Below, in pieces: positions 1,364 to 34,659 of a DNA stretch of 35,618 nucleotides. The position numbers and the translations under genes were made by a program. Where the stretch lies: IMG/VR virus record IMGVR_UViG_3300033146_004397, positions 1 through 35,618 of that record, one strand, 5' to 3'. The notes beneath the pieces were generated by a model, which did not search any database, was not told the DNA's origin, and worked only from the letters and a program-made list of their open reading frames with translations. Position 1 is the stretch's first letter; every line of letters begins with the position of its first letter. Source of the DNA: a virus.

Positions 1364-3004
1364 CTATCCTTTAATTTTGTTGTCTATTATGAGATCCGCT
1401 TGTATCTCGTCTATAGTATCAGGGTTCCCAATATATGCTTTTGTGTCTAAAATAGAGTCATATGGTATTTGCGGGTTGCTTGCTTGAGGTATGTCATCTA
1501 CATAGTATCTGTAGTCAATGCCATCGTATGTTAGTTTTCTTGACTCTGTTCTGTTTGTGTAAGATTTGATTTCTCTAATGGAGATATTCCAAAAATTTGT
1601 TTCCTGTCCAGATAGAGAAGCATCTCCAGGTCTGAAGTACAAGCTGAGTGTTGTACCCCCTGCTTCTATTACTTTATGTACTGAATCGCTTGATGCAATT
1701 TCTCCAACCTCGGGGGAGTATATACCGGATTGATAATAATCCCCACTACATTTGCATATGAACAAATATTTATGCCCAGCAGTTGAATTAACACTAAGCC
1801 TTGCTCCTTGATTTTCTGCGTTACTAATTAGATTTAATTTAAAATCCTCTATTGTTCTATTTGTAGGAGTACCATATTCGTACCACTGGGTTAAAGTTGT
1901 AACATCTGTGCCATCAGGGTAAGCACTGAAATCATAATCATTGTGAAGTTCGTCACCTAGGTCCATTAAGTCACCTTTACACTTATACTTTATTGTGTAA
2001 GGCGTAGTTGGAGTCCATTGAGCGTTGGCATACATTCCTGAATTGTCAAGCCTGATTGAGTCAGATGTTGTAAGCCCCGTTATTCTACCTGTTGTAGCAT
2101 CTTTTACAAATCTAAAGTCCGTTGGTCCATATTGGGTGTTTTTGTATGTGTCTCTGTTTGCTGTTACGTAGTTAACGATAGTCAAAGATACTGTGCCATC
2201 AAGGCTTTGAACAGCATCCCCGTTTTCATAGTCATTGCCGGGGAACATATCTTGTATATCTGTAGCATCAAAACTTAATTCATCAATCGTTACACCAAGC
2301 TGCAACCTCCGCACATCGTCAGGGTTTGCATTTAGATACACGAGGTCTGATGCCATCGGTACTTTAGATAATTTAGTAATATCTGCAAAAGAATCTGTAA
2401 ATGTGTAGGTTGTTGATGTTGGGATAGTTTCTATCACTTTCCATTCATTATTTACAGGGGAGTAATAAAGGAGTGCTTTTGTGTCTACAGAGGTTATTTC
2501 TTTAGCACTATTGATTAAAACATCTCCCGTAAAGCCCACTGCTGTCAAGGCTTCATTTGTTCCTGTAGTTTCGTAAGTTCCATTAGCACTTTGCCCATCC
2601 AATGTCCCTGCCGAGTAGTTGGATATTGTAAAGTTTATTACAACATTTGTGCCAGTTGAAGAAATATCGCTTAAATCGCTTGTGGCGCTAGATGCTGTAT
2701 AGCTGTCGGAACCGTTATCTACCCAATCAGCCCCTAGTGTTGCAGTTTGTTTTGTGTCTGTTGCAGAGAGTGTATATTCCAAAGGCACGGGTAAACTGTT
2801 GTCTGTTCCGTTCTGATATATTGCTTTAGAACCGTAGAGAGGGGCGTCATTTGCACTGCCAGAACTTCCTGCGTTGTCTAGGGTTCGTTCTCCTGTTGGG
2901 GATGTGTTGAATGTGGTCATGTTGTATAGGATTTTGGCTAATTGGACATCTCCGCTTCCACTACTTATACCTGATATAGTAAATGGTTTAAATATATTAA
3001 ACAC
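1364..3004 (-). CDS. Putative receptor-binding or adhesin-like structural protein, 546 aa
   Basis: The frame extends upstream to 3073, but the best start is GTG 3004, which has AAGGA five bases upstream and follows the TAG of the preceding gene at 3007. The protein is rich in Ser, Thr, Asn, Asp and Tyr and poor in Lys, as expected for an extended beta-rich virion protein. Residues near 400-510 of the product (GARLSVNSTAGHKYLFICK then LSLYFRPGD and NFWNISIREI) resemble a jelly-roll carbohydrate-binding module. It lies downstream of the fibre and its chaperone, so binding of a host surface glycan is a reasonable inference. No enzymatic motif is visible. Confidence 0.7.
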   Translation of the reverse strand: MFNIFKPFTISGISSGSGDVQLAKILYNMTTFNTSPTGERTLDNAGSSGSANDAPLYGSKAIYQNGTDNSLPVPLEYTLSATDTKQTATLGADWVDNGSDSYTASSATSDLSDISSTGTNVVINFTISNYSAGTLDGQSANGTYETTGTNEALTAVGFTGDVLINSAKEITSVDTKALLYYSPVNNEWKVIETIPTSTTYTFTDSFADITKLSKVPMASDLVYLNANPDDVRRLQLGVTIDELSFDATDIQDMFPGNDYENGDAVQSLDGTVSLTIVNYVTANRDTYKNTQYGPTDFRFVKDATTGRITGLTTSDSIRLDNSGMYANAQWTPTTPYTIKYKCKGDLMDLGDELHNDYDFSAYPDGTDVTTLTQWYEYGTPTNRTIEDFKLNLISNAENQGARLSVNSTAGHKYLFICKCSGDYYQSGIYSPEVGEIASSDSVHKVIEAGGTTLSLYFRPGDASLSGQETNFWNISIREIKSYTNRTESRKLTYDGIDYRYYVDDIPQASNPQIPYDSILDTKAYIGNPDTIDEIQADLIIDNKIKG

Positions 3005-3006
3005 GA

Positions 3007-3255
3007 CTATCCTTCTTGGAGTCCAACATCTCCAGTCATTACAGAGGTTTTCCCCCACCAAATACCCTTGCAAGATGGTAGGTTGCTATGTATCCCCTCT
3101 CTATGCTCAAGTTCTATTTCTGGGCTTTCATCATTATCAGGCTTATCTACAGCTTTAATTATATTAAGCGTTCCGCTACCAAGATACGAGAATAAAAATG
3201 TATTCTCATCGGTGTTAATTTGTGTGTATTCTGTATTTGTCATTGGTAATCTCAT
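3007..3255 (-). CDS. Hypothetical protein, 82 aa, fibre region
   Basis: The ATG has a strong AAGGAG seven bases upstream and overlaps the stop of the fibre-chaperone gene by four bases (ATGA). The product has a central beta-like segment (FLFSYLGSGTLNIIKAV), an acidic patch DNDESPEIELEHREG and one Cys. The stop TAG also sits inside the ribosome binding site of the next gene, so the two are likely translationally coupled. No family recognised; position suggests a small fibre or adhesin accessory. Confidence 0.7.
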   Translation of the reverse strand: MRLPMTNTEYTQINTDENTFLFSYLGSGTLNIIKAVDKPDNDESPEIELEHREGIHSNLPSCKGIWWGKTSVMTGDVGLQEG

Positions 3256-9271: not shown

Positions 9272-9420
9272 ATTTCCCAATCCCCCAAATTATTTATGAT
9301 TGTTGTGGTATTGTTTGAATCCTTTTGTGAAGCATCAACCTTTGCTGTAGTATCTGGCATAAGCTTTTTAAGTGCTTTTGTTATAAGAAACCCTGTAGAT
9401 CTATCAAATTCAAATGCCAT
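9232..9420 (-). CDS. 62-aa ORF overlapping the CHAP protein, possible N-terminal leader of a fusion
   Basis: The ATG has an AGGAG six bases upstream, so initiation here is likely. The first 45 residues (MAFEFDRSTGFLITKALKKL then a polar NNTTTIINNL) look natural; the last residues after NNLGD look like out-of-frame sequence with several Cys. The natural reading frame seems to continue in the -1 frame into the CHAP protein through the G-run. It is therefore either a short gene ending by itself, the zero-frame product of programmed frameshifting, or the N-terminus of one gene broken by a homopolymer error. Confidence 0.6.
   Translation of the reverse strand: MAFEFDRSTGFLITKALKKLMPDTTAKVDASQKDSNNTTTIINNLGDWEICLVVLHTKQCKK
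9283..9289 (-). promoter_or_regulatory. Candidate -1 ribosomal frameshift site UUUGGGG
   Basis: On the minus strand the heptamer T-TTG-GGG fits the X-XXY-YYZ pattern in the frame of the 62-aa ORF. A shift back by one base moves ribosomes into the frame of the CHAP protein and gives the junction NNFGGLGNMFGGSAY or NNLGGLGNMFGGSAY. A downstream pseudoknot was not established by eye. A length error in the five-G run is the main alternative. Confidence 0.4.
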
Positions 9421-9429
9421 TATTTTCTC

Positions 9430-10011
9430 CTAGTATCTTAAGCCAAGGTCTAAGTTTGCATCGGTATTAGCATCCATCTTTTTGGCTTTTCTAAGGCTGT
9501 CTACCATATCGGAACTGATCTTTTTATCAATAGGAGAAGATGAAATAGATAGTAGGTTCCCAAGAGCAGAAGCATCCATTGTTAGGGCACCATTTTCTTC
9601 TTTTACTCCATAGGTTGTAAATGTATTTTCTAGAGAAGAAACGTTGTCTTTAAGTATTTTTATTTCTTCCTCTTTTTTATTGATCTCACTGATTGCTTTT
9701 TTAGCCTCTTCCAATAGTTTCTGGTTTTTAGTTAAAAGCCGTTTTTTTTCTTTCATTTCTTCTTGGATATCAATATCCTTGTTTCCTATGATAATTTCCT
9801 TCTCTTCAAGTGTTTTTTGGAGAGTTGAAATATTGTCCTGCATTGCTGCTAGCTTATCTTTTACCTTAATAGCCCCCATGACGCTATCTTGATTTATAAG
9901 TAGGTCCTTTGCTTCATCATATAGCTCTTTATTGTCTCCAATGGCACTTATGACGGCATCCTCTATTGCTGATCCTAGATGACAATTACCATCGCTACAA
10001 ATTGAGTCCAT
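9430..10011 (-). CDS. Coiled-coil protein, scaffold candidate
   Basis: A 193-aa protein with a short Cys-containing N-terminus (ICSDGNCHLG) and a long charged helical stretch of roughly residues 50-135 with heptad spacing (DNISTLQKTLEEKEIII, KKRLLTKNQKLLEEAKKA). The C-terminus is a separate charged/hydrophobic segment ending LDLGLRY. Position after portal and a protease-like gene is the usual place of a head scaffold. The ATG overlaps the previous stop as TAATG with no strong ribosome binding site, suggesting coupling to the upstream gene. Confidence 0.65.
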   Translation of the reverse strand: MDSICSDGNCHLGSAIEDAVISAIGDNKELYDEAKDLLINQDSVMGAIKVKDKLAAMQDNISTLQKTLEEKEIIIGNKDIDIQEEMKEKKRLLTKNQKLLEEAKKAISEINKKEEEIKILKDNVSSLENTFTTYGVKEENGALTMDASALGNLLSISSSPIDKKISSDMVDSLRKAKKMDANTDANLDLGLRY

Positions 10012-10379
10012 TACGACACGGTTCCCATTAAATTTCCTATAGTTTCGACAAGTAGCATTTCGTAAGAGACAATTTTATCCCTTATTGAGAGCTTTGTTAC
10101 TTTCCCTATTGGTTCTTGTACGGTACCAGTATCAAAGTTGACTTCTGTTGCAAGATACCCTGTTTTCTTATGTCTTGCACCGTGACCATACATACATAGT
10201 GCATACCCATTTTTAATTGTATCTTGAACCTTTTTACTTCTTACAAGCTTGTGTATATTTTGAAGATTATAATTCCTTGGAAGACCAAAAGAATGTCCGT
10301 GTTCCGTTATATCAAATGAAATTGAAACCTTGTGTACTCCATCACTTGAACTCTCTATCTTGCTTTTTTTGTTGTTCAT
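10011..10379 (-). CDS. Hypothetical protein in the prohead-protease slot, 122 aa
   Basis: It lies between portal (plus endonuclease) and scaffold candidate, where prohead proteases are found. The segment ALCMYGHGARHKKTGYLATE followed by PIGKVTKLSIRDKIVSYEMLL loosely resembles the His-containing part of such proteases, including the beta strand after it. The protein then ends, so the region that should carry the catalytic Ser is absent. Either this is a short head protein of another type or a reduced, possibly inactive relative. Its ribosome binding site AAAGG is inside the end of the endonuclease gene. Confidence 0.55.
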   Translation of the reverse strand: MNNKKSKIESSSDGVHKVSISFDITEHGHSFGLPRNYNLQNIHKLVRSKKVQDTIKNGYALCMYGHGARHKKTGYLATEVNFDTGTVQEPIGKVTKLSIRDKIVSYEMLLVETIGNLMGTVS

Positions 10380-11050
10380 GCTATAGCCTTTGTCTTTGGA
10401 TTGTTTTTTGTATGCTCTAAATTATTATCTATCACATAATTATCATATGCTATTCCTGCTTCTATTGCAGTATCGTATCTTCCTATAAATATACTCTTGT
10501 TTTCTACTGTTATTTTGCACGCCCACTTCCCTCTGCTGGTATCAAAACTCACCCCTCTATACCCACTTGTATTATTTATCCTTAATGTCCTAGTATTCCT
10601 TGTTTGGGTGCTTCTATTTACCCATCTGCAATTATTTGGTTCATAGTTCCCATCATTATCTTTTCTGTCTATTGTTAAATCATCGCTATATCTATTTTCT
10701 AAAGCCCAATCCCTAAAAGAAGTATAGCTAGACACCCATGAGTCACACATTGTTATACCTCTTCCTCCATAATTTATAAAATGCGTGTTTGTTTCACTAT
10801 AGCATCTTGATTTAATTGCTCTCCATATCCTGTATACTCTACTATTTCTACTTTCGCAATGTTTATTTAGGCTATCTCCACATTTTCTGCATTTTGTGGT
10901 GTTTCCTTTTTTTACATTATTTATATTTGCTCTGAAATGCTTTTTACAATAAGGACATTCATATATTCCAACTCTTGTCTTATAATTACTGCTACTTTTT
11001 GGTTTTATCCTACCCAAATCTTCAATAAGTTTTATTTCAGCATGACTCAT
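10376..11050 (-). CDS. HNH homing endonuclease with AP2 DNA-binding domain
   Basis: Three parts are visible in 224 aa. Residues 32-57 form a zinc ribbon (CPYC...CRKC). Residues 71-145 have the phage HNH-type pattern YRIWRAIKSRCY, YGGRGITMCDSW, and IDRKDNDGNYEPNNCRWVN. Residues 162-206 form an AP2-like DNA-binding domain (SGYRGVSFD, GKWACKI, IFIGRYDTAIEAGIAYD). Such free-standing enzymes cut the allele without the gene and spread by repair. It is inserted exactly between portal and the next head gene, two bases after the portal stop and overlapping the next start by four bases, so the operon stays intact. Confidence 0.9.
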   Translation of the reverse strand: MSHAEIKLIEDLGRIKPKSSSNYKTRVGIYECPYCKKHFRANINNVKKGNTTKCRKCGDSLNKHCESRNSRVYRIWRAIKSRCYSETNTHFINYGGRGITMCDSWVSSYTSFRDWALENRYSDDLTIDRKDNDGNYEPNNCRWVNRSTQTRNTRTLRINNTSGYRGVSFDTSRGKWACKITVENKSIFIGRYDTAIEAGIAYDNYVIDNNLEHTKNNPKTKAIA

Positions 11051-14739: not shown

Positions 14740-14745
14740 AGGGTT

Positions 14746-14751
14746 ATTTTA
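14746..14751 (-). promoter_or_regulatory. Possible extended -10 box (TGCTAAAAT)
   Basis: On the minus strand TGC-TAAAAT has the extended -10 form. It ends six bases before ATG 14739, a gene without a ribosome binding site. TTAAAA lies about 18 bases upstream of it. This fits a leaderless transcript. Confidence 0.35.
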
Positions 14752-14785
14752 GCAGTTATTGAAGTTTTGTTTTAAAGAGTAGGTT

Positions 14786-14993
14786 TTATAAAGCTATTCG
14801 TTCGAGGATCTCTTTTATCTCTTCAAATTTATACATGCCTGCATCTTTTGGCTTATGGGAACCCCACTGTTTAAAGAAGAATTGCACGTTATTTGCCTTG
14901 GCATAACAATTTTTACAGCCACTTGATGCCATTGTGCAACCTTGTGATCGGGTTCCATGTAAAGTCCGTCCATGCTATATTTGTCTTATTCAT
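14786..14993 (-). pseudogene. Remnant of a DUF5131 (phage Gp37/Gp68 family) gene, deleted and frameshifted
   Basis: The N-terminal frame from ATG 14993 reads MNKTNIAWTDFTWNPIT, the hallmark start of the family. Around 14940-14946 one extra base in ACAAGG shifts the frame; the next frame then reads the three-Cys motif GCTMASSGCKNCYAKA, followed directly by the family's C-terminal VQFFFKQWG and a short tail ending at 14786. A usual member has about 230-280 aa; here the middle, some 150 aa or more, is missing, leaving about 68 codons. The ATG overlaps the stop of the membrane-protein gene. The family is unknown in function but is linked to three-Cys-motif partner proteins; no partner is seen here. 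Confidence 0.8.
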
Positions 14994-15226
14994 TTTATGT
15001 CTCCCATAACCCATGTTGTAAACCCAAAATAAGTGAATATGATGATAGATAGTACCACATCAAAAACATGTGGGAATCTTTCCCCCCAAAAAAGATACTC
15101 TATACCCATAAATATAAATTCTATAAAGATAAAAATACCAAGGCACCATAACCAAACTGTAAAAAGATTAAACTTAGATGCCCTTATTAATCTTGAGGTA
15201 AATTCTGTAATAAAATTGTTATTCAC
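14990..15226 (-). CDS. Small two-helix membrane protein, holin-like size
   Basis: GTG 15226 is the best start: AGGGGGA lies about six bases upstream, and the codon follows directly after the dUTPase stop; upstream codons in frame overlap dUTPase. The 78-aa product has two strong membrane segments, near residues 21-45 (TVWLWCLGIFIFIEFIFMGI) and 53-75 (VFDVVLSIIIFTYFGFTTWV). Size and topology would allow a holin, but the position in an accessory island gives no support. No family is recognised. Confidence 0.7.
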   Translation of the reverse strand: MNNNFITEFTSRLIRASKFNLFTVWLWCLGIFIFIEFIFMGIEYLFWGERFPHVFDVVLSIIIFTYFGFTTWVMGDIK

Positions 15227-15227
15227 G

Positions 15228-15788
15228 TCATCCCCCTGTGCTTCCAAAGCCGCCATCACGCTCTTTATCTGTATCAATGCCAAAGAGATAGCTTTTGTGT
15301 TCAATCATCGTGATTTGTGCGATTTTGTCTCCACTATTAATAGTGTAATCATTTGCATATTTTGCATTGCTTTGGTCATATATCCTATCATCAACAGCAC
15401 TGTACTGAAACATCATATTGTCTGAAATATCATAATCTACCAATCTTATTGGATTATGAATAATCATTTTTATCTCATCACGATAATCAAGGTCGATGAT
15501 GCCCACTCCGTTTGGAAGAATGAGTCCTTTTTTGCCGAGTGATGAGCGTAGCATAAGTTGGAGGTAGTGAGATCTGACAAAATGTCCAAAATCAAACATC
15601 CGATTATGATGTTTTCTATCTTTATAATAGATTTTTTCAATGTGGTCAATGTCTATCGACACCCCAAGCCCAACCAATCTCGTCTCTCCCGCACCGATCA
15701 CTACATCTTCAGATGCGTACAGATCGACACAAGCACTATATTTGCTTCCTCTTGTCGGCTCACAGCCTTTTGTTAATACTTTAAGCAT
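15228..15788 (-). CDS. dut: dUTPase (deoxyuridine 5'-triphosphate nucleotidohydrolase)
   Basis: It hydrolyses dUTP to dUMP and pyrophosphate, keeping uracil out of DNA and feeding dTMP synthesis. All five motifs of trimeric dUTPases are present in order: SACVDLYA (I), LRSSLGKKG (II), NGVGIIDLDYRDEI (III), GDKIAQITM (IV) and the C-terminal DGGFGSTG (V). At 186 aa it is longer than the usual 145-155 aa because of two inserts, one before motif II (KIYYKDRKHHNRMFDFG) and one before motif IV (around DNMMFQYSAVDDRIYD), as in some phage enzymes. GAGG precedes the ATG. Likely active. Confidence 0.95.
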   Translation of the reverse strand: MLKVLTKGCEPTRGSKYSACVDLYASEDVVIGAGETRLVGLGVSIDIDHIEKIYYKDRKHHNRMFDFGHFVRSHYLQLMLRSSLGKKGLILPNGVGIIDLDYRDEIKMIIHNPIRLVDYDISDNMMFQYSAVDDRIYDQSNAKYANDYTINSGDKIAQITMIEHKSYLFGIDTDKERDGGFGSTGG

Positions 15789-16173
15789 CTTCTTTTACCT
15801 CTATTTCTTTCCCACAATAAGGACAAAATTTCATTTTATTGTCAGAGGGGGTTCTTTCTACTATTGAAAATGCACCACCGCATAGTGTTGTGTATCCAAC
15901 GTCATTATCATACTTCCATTCGCACTTTTCGTTAAAGTGGTTAAATCTATTAACTATCTCATCACCAAAAGATTTTGCATCATTGAAAGTTGCATCTGCA
16001 TCTATAGCTCTATGTGTTGAGTATAGTTTTATGTCTGCGAAAGTAACATGCCATCCACCCATGAAGCAGAGAGATACACTCCCATATTTTGAGTTGCCTA
16101 TACATATTAACTTATCTTTGTCTGTATCAAAAGCGCCAGAGACACCCTCAATTCTACTTACATCTATTTTCAC
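15781..16173 (-). CDS. Hypothetical zinc-ribbon protein, 130 aa
   Basis: GTG 16173 is chosen as start because GGAGG lies six bases upstream and it follows the previous TGA immediately; the frame itself extends to TTG 16188. The C-terminus carries CEWKYD, then TLCGGAF and FCPYCGKEIEV, a pattern of small phage zinc-ribbon proteins with two Cys pairs. The first 80 residues are a beta-rich domain with GNSKYGSVSLCFMGGWHV. It overlaps dUTPase by eight bases. Function unknown. Confidence 0.7.
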   Translation of the reverse strand: MKIDVSRIEGVSGAFDTDKDKLICIGNSKYGSVSLCFMGGWHVTFADIKLYSTHRAIDADATFNDAKSFGDEIVNRFNHFNEKCEWKYDNDVGYTTLCGGAFSIVERTPSDNKMKFCPYCGKEIEVKEDA

Positions 16174-16174
16174 T

Positions 16175-16729
16175 TCACACCTCCTCAATTAACATAAGTG
16201 ATTTAAAGCTTTTTACCACTTCAAGAATTGATACCTTTTTACCTAAGTTGCTTGGCAGCCCTGCAAGCCTTTTTGCTTCATTTTCTACACTATCCAGTGA
16301 ATTATGGATTTTTTTTGGTGTAGTTCCGTTTTCAACAAGGACCATATACTGCTTTTCTTTGTCTGGCGTTTCATTCTCTTCTATTTTACTAAAGCAGTGT
16401 CTAAACCCACCTTCGTCAAAGACACATAATTTTTTATTGTCATTCTTTGTCACAATGACATGTTTTGATTCTTGTTTAAATTGGTATCTATTTCCTTCTG
16501 TGAAGCCAGCTTGATCTATTAGTGCATCTCCATTATATACTGCTGTAAAGCAAATTGGATATTCTTCTTTGTTCTGCTCTTCAAAGGTCTCATTAAATAA
16601 TTTTTTAGGCATAGTTGATATTACAACCCCACATACAGATATAGTAGCGTCATCCCCGTTTATTTCCACATCATAAACCATTCCGTTTACAAATGTAGTG
16701 TTAGTCTCTCTTGTATAAATTACTTTCAT
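16175..16729 (-). CDS. Hypothetical protein, 184 aa
   Basis: The ATG has AAGGA six bases upstream. The product looks like two small beta domains (FVNGMVYDVEINGDDATISV, then FTEGNRYQFKQESKHVIVTK) followed by a helical C-terminus (LDSVENEAKRLAGLPSNLG). Five Cys residues are scattered without an obvious zinc pattern. No family recognised. It is coupled to both neighbours by short overlaps or abutting ends. Confidence 0.65.
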   Translation of the reverse strand: MKVIYTRETNTTFVNGMVYDVEINGDDATISVCGVVISTMPKKLFNETFEEQNKEEYPICFTAVYNGDALIDQAGFTEGNRYQFKQESKHVIVTKNDNKKLCVFDEGGFRHCFSKIEENETPDKEKQYMVLVENGTTPKKIHNSLDSVENEAKRLAGLPSNLGKKVSILEVVKSFKSLMLIEEV

Positions 16730-17388
16730 CTTTCATCCTTATTTTTTATTTTTGCTTTAGCTATTCTATCTGCAAGTGCAGAAAGATTTTTTTTCTTACG
16801 CTCTTTTTTTTCAACAAGTTTTTTAATTACCCTATTTGGCTTTGTCTTTTCTTTTCTTTTTTTCTCCTTTTTATTTTTTGGTTTTTTCACTTTCACCACC
16901 ACCTCTTTAGGCTTTATAAGTCCATAAGATTTAGTTCCAAGTAGTTTATTTAACTCTTTGTCGAGTTCAAGTGTTCCAAGTGCAATGTTCTTGTAGTCCA
17001 TAAAGTAGATATGTCTATCCCTGACGTATGCTTTGGTAGCAAAAAACTCTCTAAAGTCTTTCGGAGTGATAATCATCGCCAAGCACTCAACAAGGACTGG
17101 TATGCTTTCCTCTTTCATTGTGTTTTCGTTACGGTCTGCGAGTTCTTTCCAAATTGCACTAAGTTTTTCAAGTAGGGTATGATATTGGTAGTCTCCAACT
17201 TTTGAGTAAAAAACATTCATAGCTCTTTTTGACTGTAGGTGTAGTTTTTTTAGCTCTGCATCAGGGTAGGGTTCAAGGTCTCTTAATACGGTTGCTATAA
17301 AAGTAGCTATTGCGAATGATTTATTTATGTTCTTTGGTATCTTTGTTTCGGTTACTCTGTAGCCGTGTTTTACTTTTTTAAAGTTCAT
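16726..17388 (-). CDS. Hypothetical protein with highly basic C-terminus, 220 aa
   Basis: Residues 1-160 are a mixed helical domain (FAIATFIATVLRDLEPYPDA, LLEKLSAIWKELADR). The last 60 residues are extremely Lys/Arg-rich (KKPKNKKEKKRKEKTKPNR, then KKERKKKNLSALADR), which suggests nucleic-acid binding or charge neutralisation of DNA. GAGGT precedes the ATG. No family recognised. Confidence 0.65.
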   Translation of the reverse strand: MNFKKVKHGYRVTETKIPKNINKSFAIATFIATVLRDLEPYPDAELKKLHLQSKRAMNVFYSKVGDYQYHTLLEKLSAIWKELADRNENTMKEESIPVLVECLAMIITPKDFREFFATKAYVRDRHIYFMDYKNIALGTLELDKELNKLLGTKSYGLIKPKEVVVKVKKPKNKKEKKRKEKTKPNRVIKKLVEKKERKKKNLSALADRIAKAKIKNKDER

Positions 17389-17786
17389 TTTGATACCTCT
17401 AGCAAATCTTTATTCTCATAGATGTTGCCTATAATTTCACACAGCTTAAAGTCTATTGCTTCTGCATAATAATCGTTCCTTTTATCTTTTGCTATATAGC
17501 GTCCATATTCAACATCAAAAACAACTTCTGCTATTTTGATAGTACCTCTTATCTCCCATTTTAATATATCTCCTCGATAAATCTCAATACCTACAGAGTC
17601 TTTTAGTCCAGTGCATAAGTCTTTACCTATCATCCTATACTCAACAAAATCCTCATCAAGACCACTCATCCCATTTATTTCTTCTTCCATGCCCTCTTTT
17701 AAAAAGCTACTATCAAGTAACTGATCTAGCGTGTAGTAGAACTTATCCATATTGTCAAAAGTAAATCTAAATTTGATATCTTGCAT
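17385..17786 (-). CDS. YopX-like protein
   Basis: A 133-aa protein with the typical YopX layout: an N-terminal IKFRFTFDNMDKFYY segment, a middle with LKDSVGIEIYRGDILKW, and the C-terminal signature CEIIGNIYENKDLLE. YopX proteins are widespread in phages and have no known role. A second, larger member lies at 33362-33919. GGAGGT precedes the ATG, and it shares one base with the upstream gene. Confidence 0.8.
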   Translation of the reverse strand: MQDIKFRFTFDNMDKFYYTLDQLLDSSFLKEGMEEEINGMSGLDEDFVEYRMIGKDLCTGLKDSVGIEIYRGDILKWEIRGTIKIAEVVFDVEYGRYIAKDKRNDYYAEAIDFKLCEIIGNIYENKDLLEVSK

Positions 17787-18523
17787 TATAGCACCTCCGC
17801 TAACTTGTGGATGATCTCATAAAGCTTTTCCATTTCGGGGTTTCTAGATAAACATTTACCATTTAATTTTGGGTTGTTTAAATTGTGCCCGTTTAATCTT
17901 ATATGTTCATCATACGCTTTTTTTGTAAGGAAGAAATTAGTATTGTGCTTCGTACAGTCTTGCACTAACTCATAATTTAGTATTTCAAACACAAACTCAT
18001 CTGACAATTCATATTTAATAAGCCATAGCTCTACCGTTTCAATACAGTTGCTATTTTTAAGTTCTTCTCTTAGTCTGTCAACATTGTCTATCTCATAATC
18101 TTCAATGTGCTGTAAAATATTGTCTGCAAAATCTTCAAGAGAATAGGCTTCACCATCATAAATAATGTCAAAATTGTCTTCTGCAATGCCATCTGGTCTA
18201 TACTCTTTCTGCTCTGTAGTCAATAAAAAAGCAAACGGTTGAGCAGTATCCATGTTGTCCTGCGTCTTCATTTCATGTGATAAATTCTTGATGAAATCTA
18301 TCTGATCTTTTGATAATGTTTCAAATGTTTCATCAGTATTTTGTGCAGGTGGCGTATAACTATCAAGATCTGTCTCTGTGCTGATACTGAAACCTTCTTT
18401 GTCACAATTTGGGCATCTATAGTAATCTGCTATTGCGGTAGTTCGTATATATTCCAGATCCTCGACATGATCCATTGTAGGACCACACTCTGCACATGAA
18501 TCATATGTATTTTCATTTTTCAT
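17786..18523 (-). CDS. Hypothetical protein with N-terminal zinc ribbon, 245 aa
   Basis: The first 45 residues carry CAEC (about residues 10-13) and CPNC (about 37-40), a zinc-ribbon pattern. The rest is acidic with helical segments (LSKDQIDFIKNLSHEMK, NVDRLREELKNSNC). A C-terminal part has CTKHNTNFFLTKKAYDEHIR, in which C-x-x-H and H spacing might form another metal site. No family recognised. It lies in an island with other zinc-binding small proteins between terminase and dUTPase. Confidence 0.65.
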   Translation of the reverse strand: MKNENTYDSCAECGPTMDHVEDLEYIRTTAIADYYRCPNCDKEGFSISTETDLDSYTPPAQNTDETFETLSKDQIDFIKNLSHEMKTQDNMDTAQPFAFLLTTEQKEYRPDGIAEDNFDIIYDGEAYSLEDFADNILQHIEDYEIDNVDRLREELKNSNCIETVELWLIKYELSDEFVFEILNYELVQDCTKHNTNFFLTKKAYDEHIRLNGHNLNNPKLNGKCLSRNPEMEKLYEIIHKLAEVL

Positions 18524-18702
18524 CTTCTTAGGTCTCCTACTATTTTATCGATCACTCTTGCAATCTCCTTGTTGCTAACACTGCTCCTAACAACTTTATT
18601 TTTTAAACTCAACAAGTCACCAATGGCAGTCGTAATATCCTCCTCCACTAGTGCCATGCACTGATAAGCATTATTTAATTTTATTTTTATATCACTTGCC
18701 AT
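18520..18702 (-). CDS. Small helical hypothetical protein, 60 aa
   Basis: The ATG has AGGGG six bases upstream and overlaps the preceding gene by 11 bases and the following one by four. The sequence is predicted to be helical with a regular hydrophobic pattern (MALVEEDITTAIGDLLSLKN). No family recognised. Confidence 0.65.
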   Translation of the reverse strand: MASDIKIKLNNAYQCMALVEEDITTAIGDLLSLKNKVVRSSVSNKEIARVIDKIVGDLRR

Positions 18703-19003
18703 TTATTACCCCTTCAAATTTTTTACACCCAAACCCAATAGATGCACTTGCTACGCCTTTTATGCAATACCCAAGCCCAAGCTGCTCTTTGTCAAGTTCA
18801 CCGTTCATATCCCTTAAACCAAAGGAAGCACATCTCTCACATACTCTTGTCTCATACTCATAAATGACTTCTGTAAGCTTATCTGTAGCCAAAGACCTTA
18901 TTTCATACTGATCTATATCCCACACTTTAATCTCGCTCATTATTCCATTTGCGATTATTCCTGCTCTAACTTTAACATGATCTATCGCTGATTCTTTACC
19001 CAT
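18692..19003 (-). CDS. Hypothetical Cys-containing protein, 103 aa
   Basis: A strong AAAGGAG precedes the ATG. The C-terminal half has C-x-x-C (RVCERCASFGLRD), then YCIKG and GCKKFEG, four Cys that could bind zinc or a metal cluster. The N-terminal half is helical. It is the first gene after the 112-base gap that follows the large terminase. No family recognised. Confidence 0.65.
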   Translation of the reverse strand: MGKESAIDHVKVRAGIIANGIMSEIKVWDIDQYEIRSLATDKLTEVIYEYETRVCERCASFGLRDMNGELDKEQLGLGYCIKGVASASIGFGCKKFEGVINGK

Positions 19004-19115
19004 CTTGTTCTCCTTTAATAAAATCTTTACGCTGCATTATCGCACAAGTTGTCTTAAAAGTTCCTGAACAGTTGATGAAAGATGAACTAATCCATGTAAA
19101 ACACTTTTTTTGTGT

Positions 19116-34083: not shown

Positions 34084-34659
34084 TTAAACTCCTTTTTCAT
34101 TCATCAGCCAATCTTTAGCCTTTTGGATGTCTGCCCTTGAGTGAGTTATATTTTCATTCATATCTATATAGAATTTCACTACTTCTTCTATAGTATCAAA
34201 GGTATATATTTTGATAGCCAAGTGTGTATTAAATGCACCAAGATACTCTTTTAATTCTTGATATGAATACCCAAAAGGTTTTATTTTCCCATCAAAAAAA
34301 TCTATTATTGCAGTAGTTCTTTGAAGCCCGTCAATGATAAGTGAATCCTCCAGTTCTCCCATTCTGTAAAATAAAAGTTCTGTATTTGCACCACTCAATA
34401 AATTTTCAATAAACTTTAACTTCATTTTTTTAGTCCACTTATTATTTGCTCTTTGAAATGGAGGAGTAACCCTATCTAACCATGATTTATTTGTTACATC
34501 ATTCTTTTTAAGAGTCGATTTAATGTCCAAAATATCATACCAAGTATGTAAGAGCATAGAATCTACAAATCTTTTTAATTCAATAGAGACACAATAGTTA
34601 TCTCTATTAAAATTACTACTTCTCGTTTTTTTTACTAAATCCATTATTTTATTACACAT
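34084..34659 (-). CDS. DUF262-domain protein (ParB/GmrSD-N-like), stand-alone
   Basis: Residues 66-70 (PPFQR) and 110-117 (DGLQRTTA) match the two conserved blocks of DUF262, the ParB-like nucleotide-binding/nuclease fold found in the N-terminal half of GmrSD-type modification-dependent systems (usual forms PxFQR and DGQQRxTT). At 191 aa only this domain is present; the DUF1524 HNH part of GmrSD is absent. Phages often carry such single-domain forms; roles in DNA handling or in conflict with host defence are possible but unproven. The Gln at the second position of the usual DGQQR is replaced by Leu. Confidence 0.75.
   Translation of the reverse strand: MCNKIMDLVKKTRSSNFNRDNYCVSIELKRFVDSMLLHTWYDILDIKSTLKKNDVTNKSWLDRVTPPFQRANNKWTKKMKLKFIENLLSGANTELLFYRMGELEDSLIIDGLQRTTAIIDFFDGKIKPFGYSYQELKEYLGAFNTHLAIKIYTFDTIEEVVKFYIDMNENITHSRADIQKAKDWLMNEKGV

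Follow-up and report, generated by a model that had tools for sequence, protein, structure and literature searches.

The window analyzed here comprises all 35,618 nucleotides of IMG/VR record IMGVR_UViG_3300033146_004397, a 35.6-kb linear virus contig. Translation of its minus strand revealed the remnant of a DUF5131 (Gp37/Gp68) gene, which extends from an ATG at position 14993 to a TAA at 14788 to 14786; an earlier reading of the letters (the sequence-only reading) had placed a shrunken and frameshifted DUF5131 gene at 14786–14993 without naming the strand, and these coordinates are exact. The ATG and the TGA that ends the upstream ORF overlap as ATGA, with GGGAG shortly before the ATG; start codon and ribosome-binding site are intact. 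The first frame encodes the DUF5131 N-terminal stretch MNKTNIAWTDFTWNPIT (14943–14993) and closes after 26 codons in total. A one-base frame change at about 14941–14943 is followed by a second frame reading GCTMASSGCKNCYAKA NNVQFFFKQWGSHKPKDAGMYKFEEIKEILERIAL up to the stop codon (in full GCTMASSGCKNCYAKANNVQFFFKQWGSHKPKDAGMYKFEEIKEILERIAL), in which an internal ATG at 14932 is preceded by AAGG. This frame contains a three-Cys stretch (GCTMASSGCKNCYAKA, 14894–14941), the in-frame junction of an apparent internal deletion (14891–14899), the C-terminal stretch NVQFFFKQWG (14861–14890), and a tail (SHKPKDAGMYKFEEIKEILERIAL, 14789–14860), which shows coding-like codon usage, yet is unlike the usual DUF5131 C-terminus. 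Unlike an intact DUF5131 member, the remnant has no single open frame; without read-through of the frame change, the first ATG would yield no more than a 26-aa peptide.

A profile of length 240 was built from 22 full-length phage DUF5131 members (alignment A2) and compared with the window. Three stretches of the remnant matched in order, at profile positions 1–17, 18–33, and about 201–222 (NVQFFFKQWG itself at about 203–213), with scores of 17.1, 14.6, and 13.9 bits in the raw window, while 40 dinucleotide shuffles of the window gave 11.0 bits at best and the next-best real stretch reached 4.0. All three stretches exceed the shuffle best; the resemblance to DUF5131 is therefore real and not due to chance. 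Pfam family PF07505 matched at two places, profile positions 15–31 and 204–227, with an E-value of 1.6e-5 for the 51-aa open part, although the score of 25 bits for this part lies below the gathering cut-off of 28.9 (16 and 13.9 bits for the separate places). PHROG 2045 aligned the first piece at 2–18 and the second at 19–35; this contiguity, also seen at profile positions 17 and 18, indicates that nothing was lost at the frame change. The PADLOC models PDC-M41B and PDC-M30B matched the remnant read-through at both ends (E about 1e-16), which points to descent from such a gene. Family profiles thus detected both the start motif and the three-Cys motif, and together with alignment scoring also the C-terminal FFFKQWG stretch; profile searches found no other family above noise, so the refuting case named in the sequence-only reading, a match to another short family, did not arise.

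The sequence-only reading had also held that the middle of the protein was missing, and by profile positions about 169 codons are indeed gone between CYAKA and NVQFFFKQWG. Among 52 residues invariant in the 22 full-length relatives, the remnant keeps 19, has lost 31, and has changed two. The missing middle was not found elsewhere in the 35.6-kb record, and no syntenic full-length parent gene was found; it is the family profile, rather than the sequence of an ancestor, from which the internal deletion is deduced. The profile alignments, 1–33 and 201–220, overlap at the junction, where the residues KA are compatible with either flank; a deletion by way of short repeats would probably leave such a pair. 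By chance alone, an in-frame junction like this one would arise in one of three cases. A scan of viral contigs for a KQWGxxKP tail in a DUF5131 gene returned unrelated matches only.

The structure of a full-length relative (L003, 248 aa) was predicted with a pLDDT of 86. Among solved structures, spore photoproduct lyases, which belong to the radical-SAM enzymes, are the best neighbors of this model (Foldseek E 1.5e-3, probability 1.0, TM 0.50). The part lost from the remnant corresponds in the model to five of the seven listed strands, those from residue 70 to residue 177, and to most of the helices; with 31 of the 52 invariant residues in this part, the remnant does not possess the core of the predicted radical-SAM-like barrel. 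The remnant read-through folded alone reached a pLDDT of 45, which is weak evidence as a prediction from a single sequence without an alignment.

The terminase of the contig matches PacB of the P1 group at about 30%, and profile searches assigned its portal, sheath, and PmgG-like genes to phage types. Searches with the 171-aa neighbor gene or the terminase as lone query found no relatives, but the terminase alignment (A1) identified the closest phages found in IMG/VR, L072 and L073, with terminases 74–75% identical. Comparison with these phages delimited a 4.4-kb cargo block (14740–19115, minus strand), which carries a dUTPase gene, a YopX-like gene, and several unknown genes, with the remnant at its end. 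Its insertion point falls precisely where the terminase stop would meet the start codon that comes next, and among the three phages compared the block occupies this place only here; in L072 and L073 the 171-aa gene begins within about a dozen bases of the terminase stop. L073 has a dUTPase elsewhere in its genome. Neither DUF5131 nor TcmP was found in the records of L072 and L073, and DUF5131 was absent beside related dUTPases at all 26 loci; no relative sharing the gene arrangement of the remnant was found among these phages and loci. The remnant is thus a piece of variable cargo, rather than something conserved throughout this phage group.

Full-length DUF5131 proteins match PDC-M30B and PDC-M41B, and the TcmP (three-Cys-motif partner) adjoining DUF5131 in L020 matches PDC-M30A. 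TcmP was present in three of the eight examined phage records having full-length DUF5131. A TcmP-like partner (TIGR04474), proposed earlier as something to look for elsewhere in the genome, is absent from the 35.6-kb record, which may be a fragment or incomplete. PDC systems are putative and were found via guilt-by-embedding; one study that covered 100 P. aeruginosa strains predicted PDC-M30 in 32 of them (PMC10855318). Judged by these matches, the intact gene would have been the B half of a TcmP/DUF5131 pair corresponding to the PADLOC candidate defence systems PDC-M30/M41, which are database candidates only. Separately, a 191-aa protein encoded at 34084–34659 (minus strand) gave weak matches to the defence models NsnA and PD-T4-2_A and to PHROG 1583.

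Comparison of the ORFs of L072 and L073 with the window brought out two more breaks. A 112-bp out-of-frame deletion at about 10.03 kb (10000–10040, minus strand) splits a core gene that adjoins the portal gene (directly after it in L073) and is one intact 350-aa ORF in both relatives. A short A-rich repeat is present at the ends of this deletion, and the gene halves overlap as TAATG in the window. A second frame break was located at about 9.29 kb (9280–9320, minus strand) at TTTGGGGGAT, at a run of five G, in a tail/baseplate gene (765-aa ORF), which is a single unbroken ORF in L072 and L073; this break may be a homopolymer length change or, with less likelihood, a programmed –1 shift at TTTGGGG. 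Most other core genes in the shared region, among them those for terminase, portal, and sheath, keep their frame as compared to L072 and L073. Coding lesions thus appear to be general in this contig and no trait of the DUF5131 gene, and would stem either from a defective prophage in decay or from errors of consensus or assembly. Two further observations were made in the contig: overlapping ORFs of 82 and 569 aa at 1364–3255 (minus strand) may be one gene broken near 3010–3070, and a stand-alone HNH endonuclease gene carrying an AP2 domain is inserted at 10376–11050 (minus strand), with the portal gene on one side and the damaged core gene on the other, and is absent from L073.

The remnant is in all likelihood a dead relic, namely an inactivated DUF5131 cargo gene of a P1-like phage that once made up one half of a candidate defence pair. 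It would originate from a DUF5131 (Gp37/Gp68) gene of about 240 codons closing the accessory block between terminase and next core gene. A single in-frame deletion, probably through recombination between short repeats, would have removed about 169 internal codons by profile positions, and the frame would have been closed, either before or after this deletion, by a one-base change where codon 17 meets codon 18. The intact start would then yield a 26-aa peptide and a restart at ATG 14932 at most 48 aa that retain two of the three cysteines; no radical-SAM-like barrel can form from either product, hence no enzyme would be made. The near-consensus ends, the coding-like tail, and the in-frame junction count against a relic. 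Since the retained ends are near consensus and the tail is still coding-like, the decay, if real, would be recent. Taken together, real damage is the most likely explanation, a sequencing or assembly artefact ranks second, and a functional mini-protein is unlikely.

The artefact, to which we assign a rather low probability, would mean that the phage gene is intact or otherwise damaged and that the contig was misjoined or miscalled. The further core-gene lesions, including the one at five consecutive G, have the look of an indel-prone consensus, and the near-consensus state of the retained DUF5131 parts would fit such an error as well. However, the frame change in the DUF5131 gene lies outside any long homopolymer, and the frame-intact state of most shared-region core genes argues against such an error. 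Furthermore, assemblers seldom drop 500 bp where a long repeat is absent.

The sequence-only reading had left the choice between a decaying gene and a minimal form; the lesions in core genes and the loss of invariant residues and barrel favor decay, and the minimal form was not supported. It would be a functional DUF5131-derived protein of 48–68 aa, made via a frameshift at about 14942 or a restart at ATG 14932, whose cysteines bind a metal or an Fe-S cluster. The in-frame deletion junction, the coding-like tail, the intact start signals with AAGG before the internal ATG, and the retention of all three cysteines in the read-through can be cited in its favor. However, a restart at the internal ATG would drop one cysteine, no recognised slippery signal is present at the frame change, and single-sequence prediction gave no confident fold for the read-through. 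No equal was found elsewhere: a search by junction pattern for equally short versions in 2.9 million IMG/VR viral contigs returned none, the two closest phages being devoid of DUF5131 altogether. Four matches to the junction pattern were rejected as short forms; two occurred by chance, and the other two are full-length genes of the ordinary kind, of which one has KQWG close to the N-terminus and the other has CYA immediately ahead of FFFKQWG. Breaks are, moreover, common in this contig, and damage spread over the contig makes it less likely that selection has kept the remnant as a minimal gene. We therefore regard a functional minimal protein as very improbable, and still more so that a product of 48–68 aa exists and acts as a small cysteine-cluster protein, such as a decoy or inhibitor of full-length DUF5131/TcmP systems in the host. 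Least credible of all is a mere truncation, in which the part following CYAKA would be collinear with the N-terminal region of a KRFGKQWG-type variant; some DUF5131 members do carry KQWG close to the N-terminus, L006 for instance reading CYAERQAKRFGKQWG there, but the C-terminal alignment outscored the N-terminal one in 49 of 51 relatives (mean 47.8 versus 19.2), Pfam and PADLOC profiles put this part at 201–227, and internal deletion appears to be the better reading of these alignments.

The inactivated cargo gene is a finding of little weight alone: it shows that this phage lineage, or a partner in gene exchange, once had a DUF5131 gene of the PADLOC candidate-defence type, and that DUF5131 cargo of this kind can be lost. 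In a contig with several coding lesions, short odd genes should be read as damage first.

As compared to DUF5131/Gp37-Gp68 (PF07505, PHROG 2045), the remnant shares the start motif, FFFKQWG, and the three-Cys motif, each where the profile would place it, but it lacks about 169 of 240 codons, its frame is broken, and the tail following KQWG is not alignable. With respect to the PADLOC candidates PDC-M30 and PDC-M41, in which A is TcmP-like and B is DUF5131, it resembles the B models at both ends, whereas this record is without a TcmP-like partner and its B gene is not intact. The full-length DUF5131 protein L003 is predicted to resemble the radical-SAM spore photoproduct lyase fold with a modest Foldseek score; this likeness concerns the intact DUF5131 family only, as the remnant has no barrel. 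Pseudogenised prophage cargo genes likewise combine an internal deletion and a frame break in an accessory gene with more lesions in core genes.
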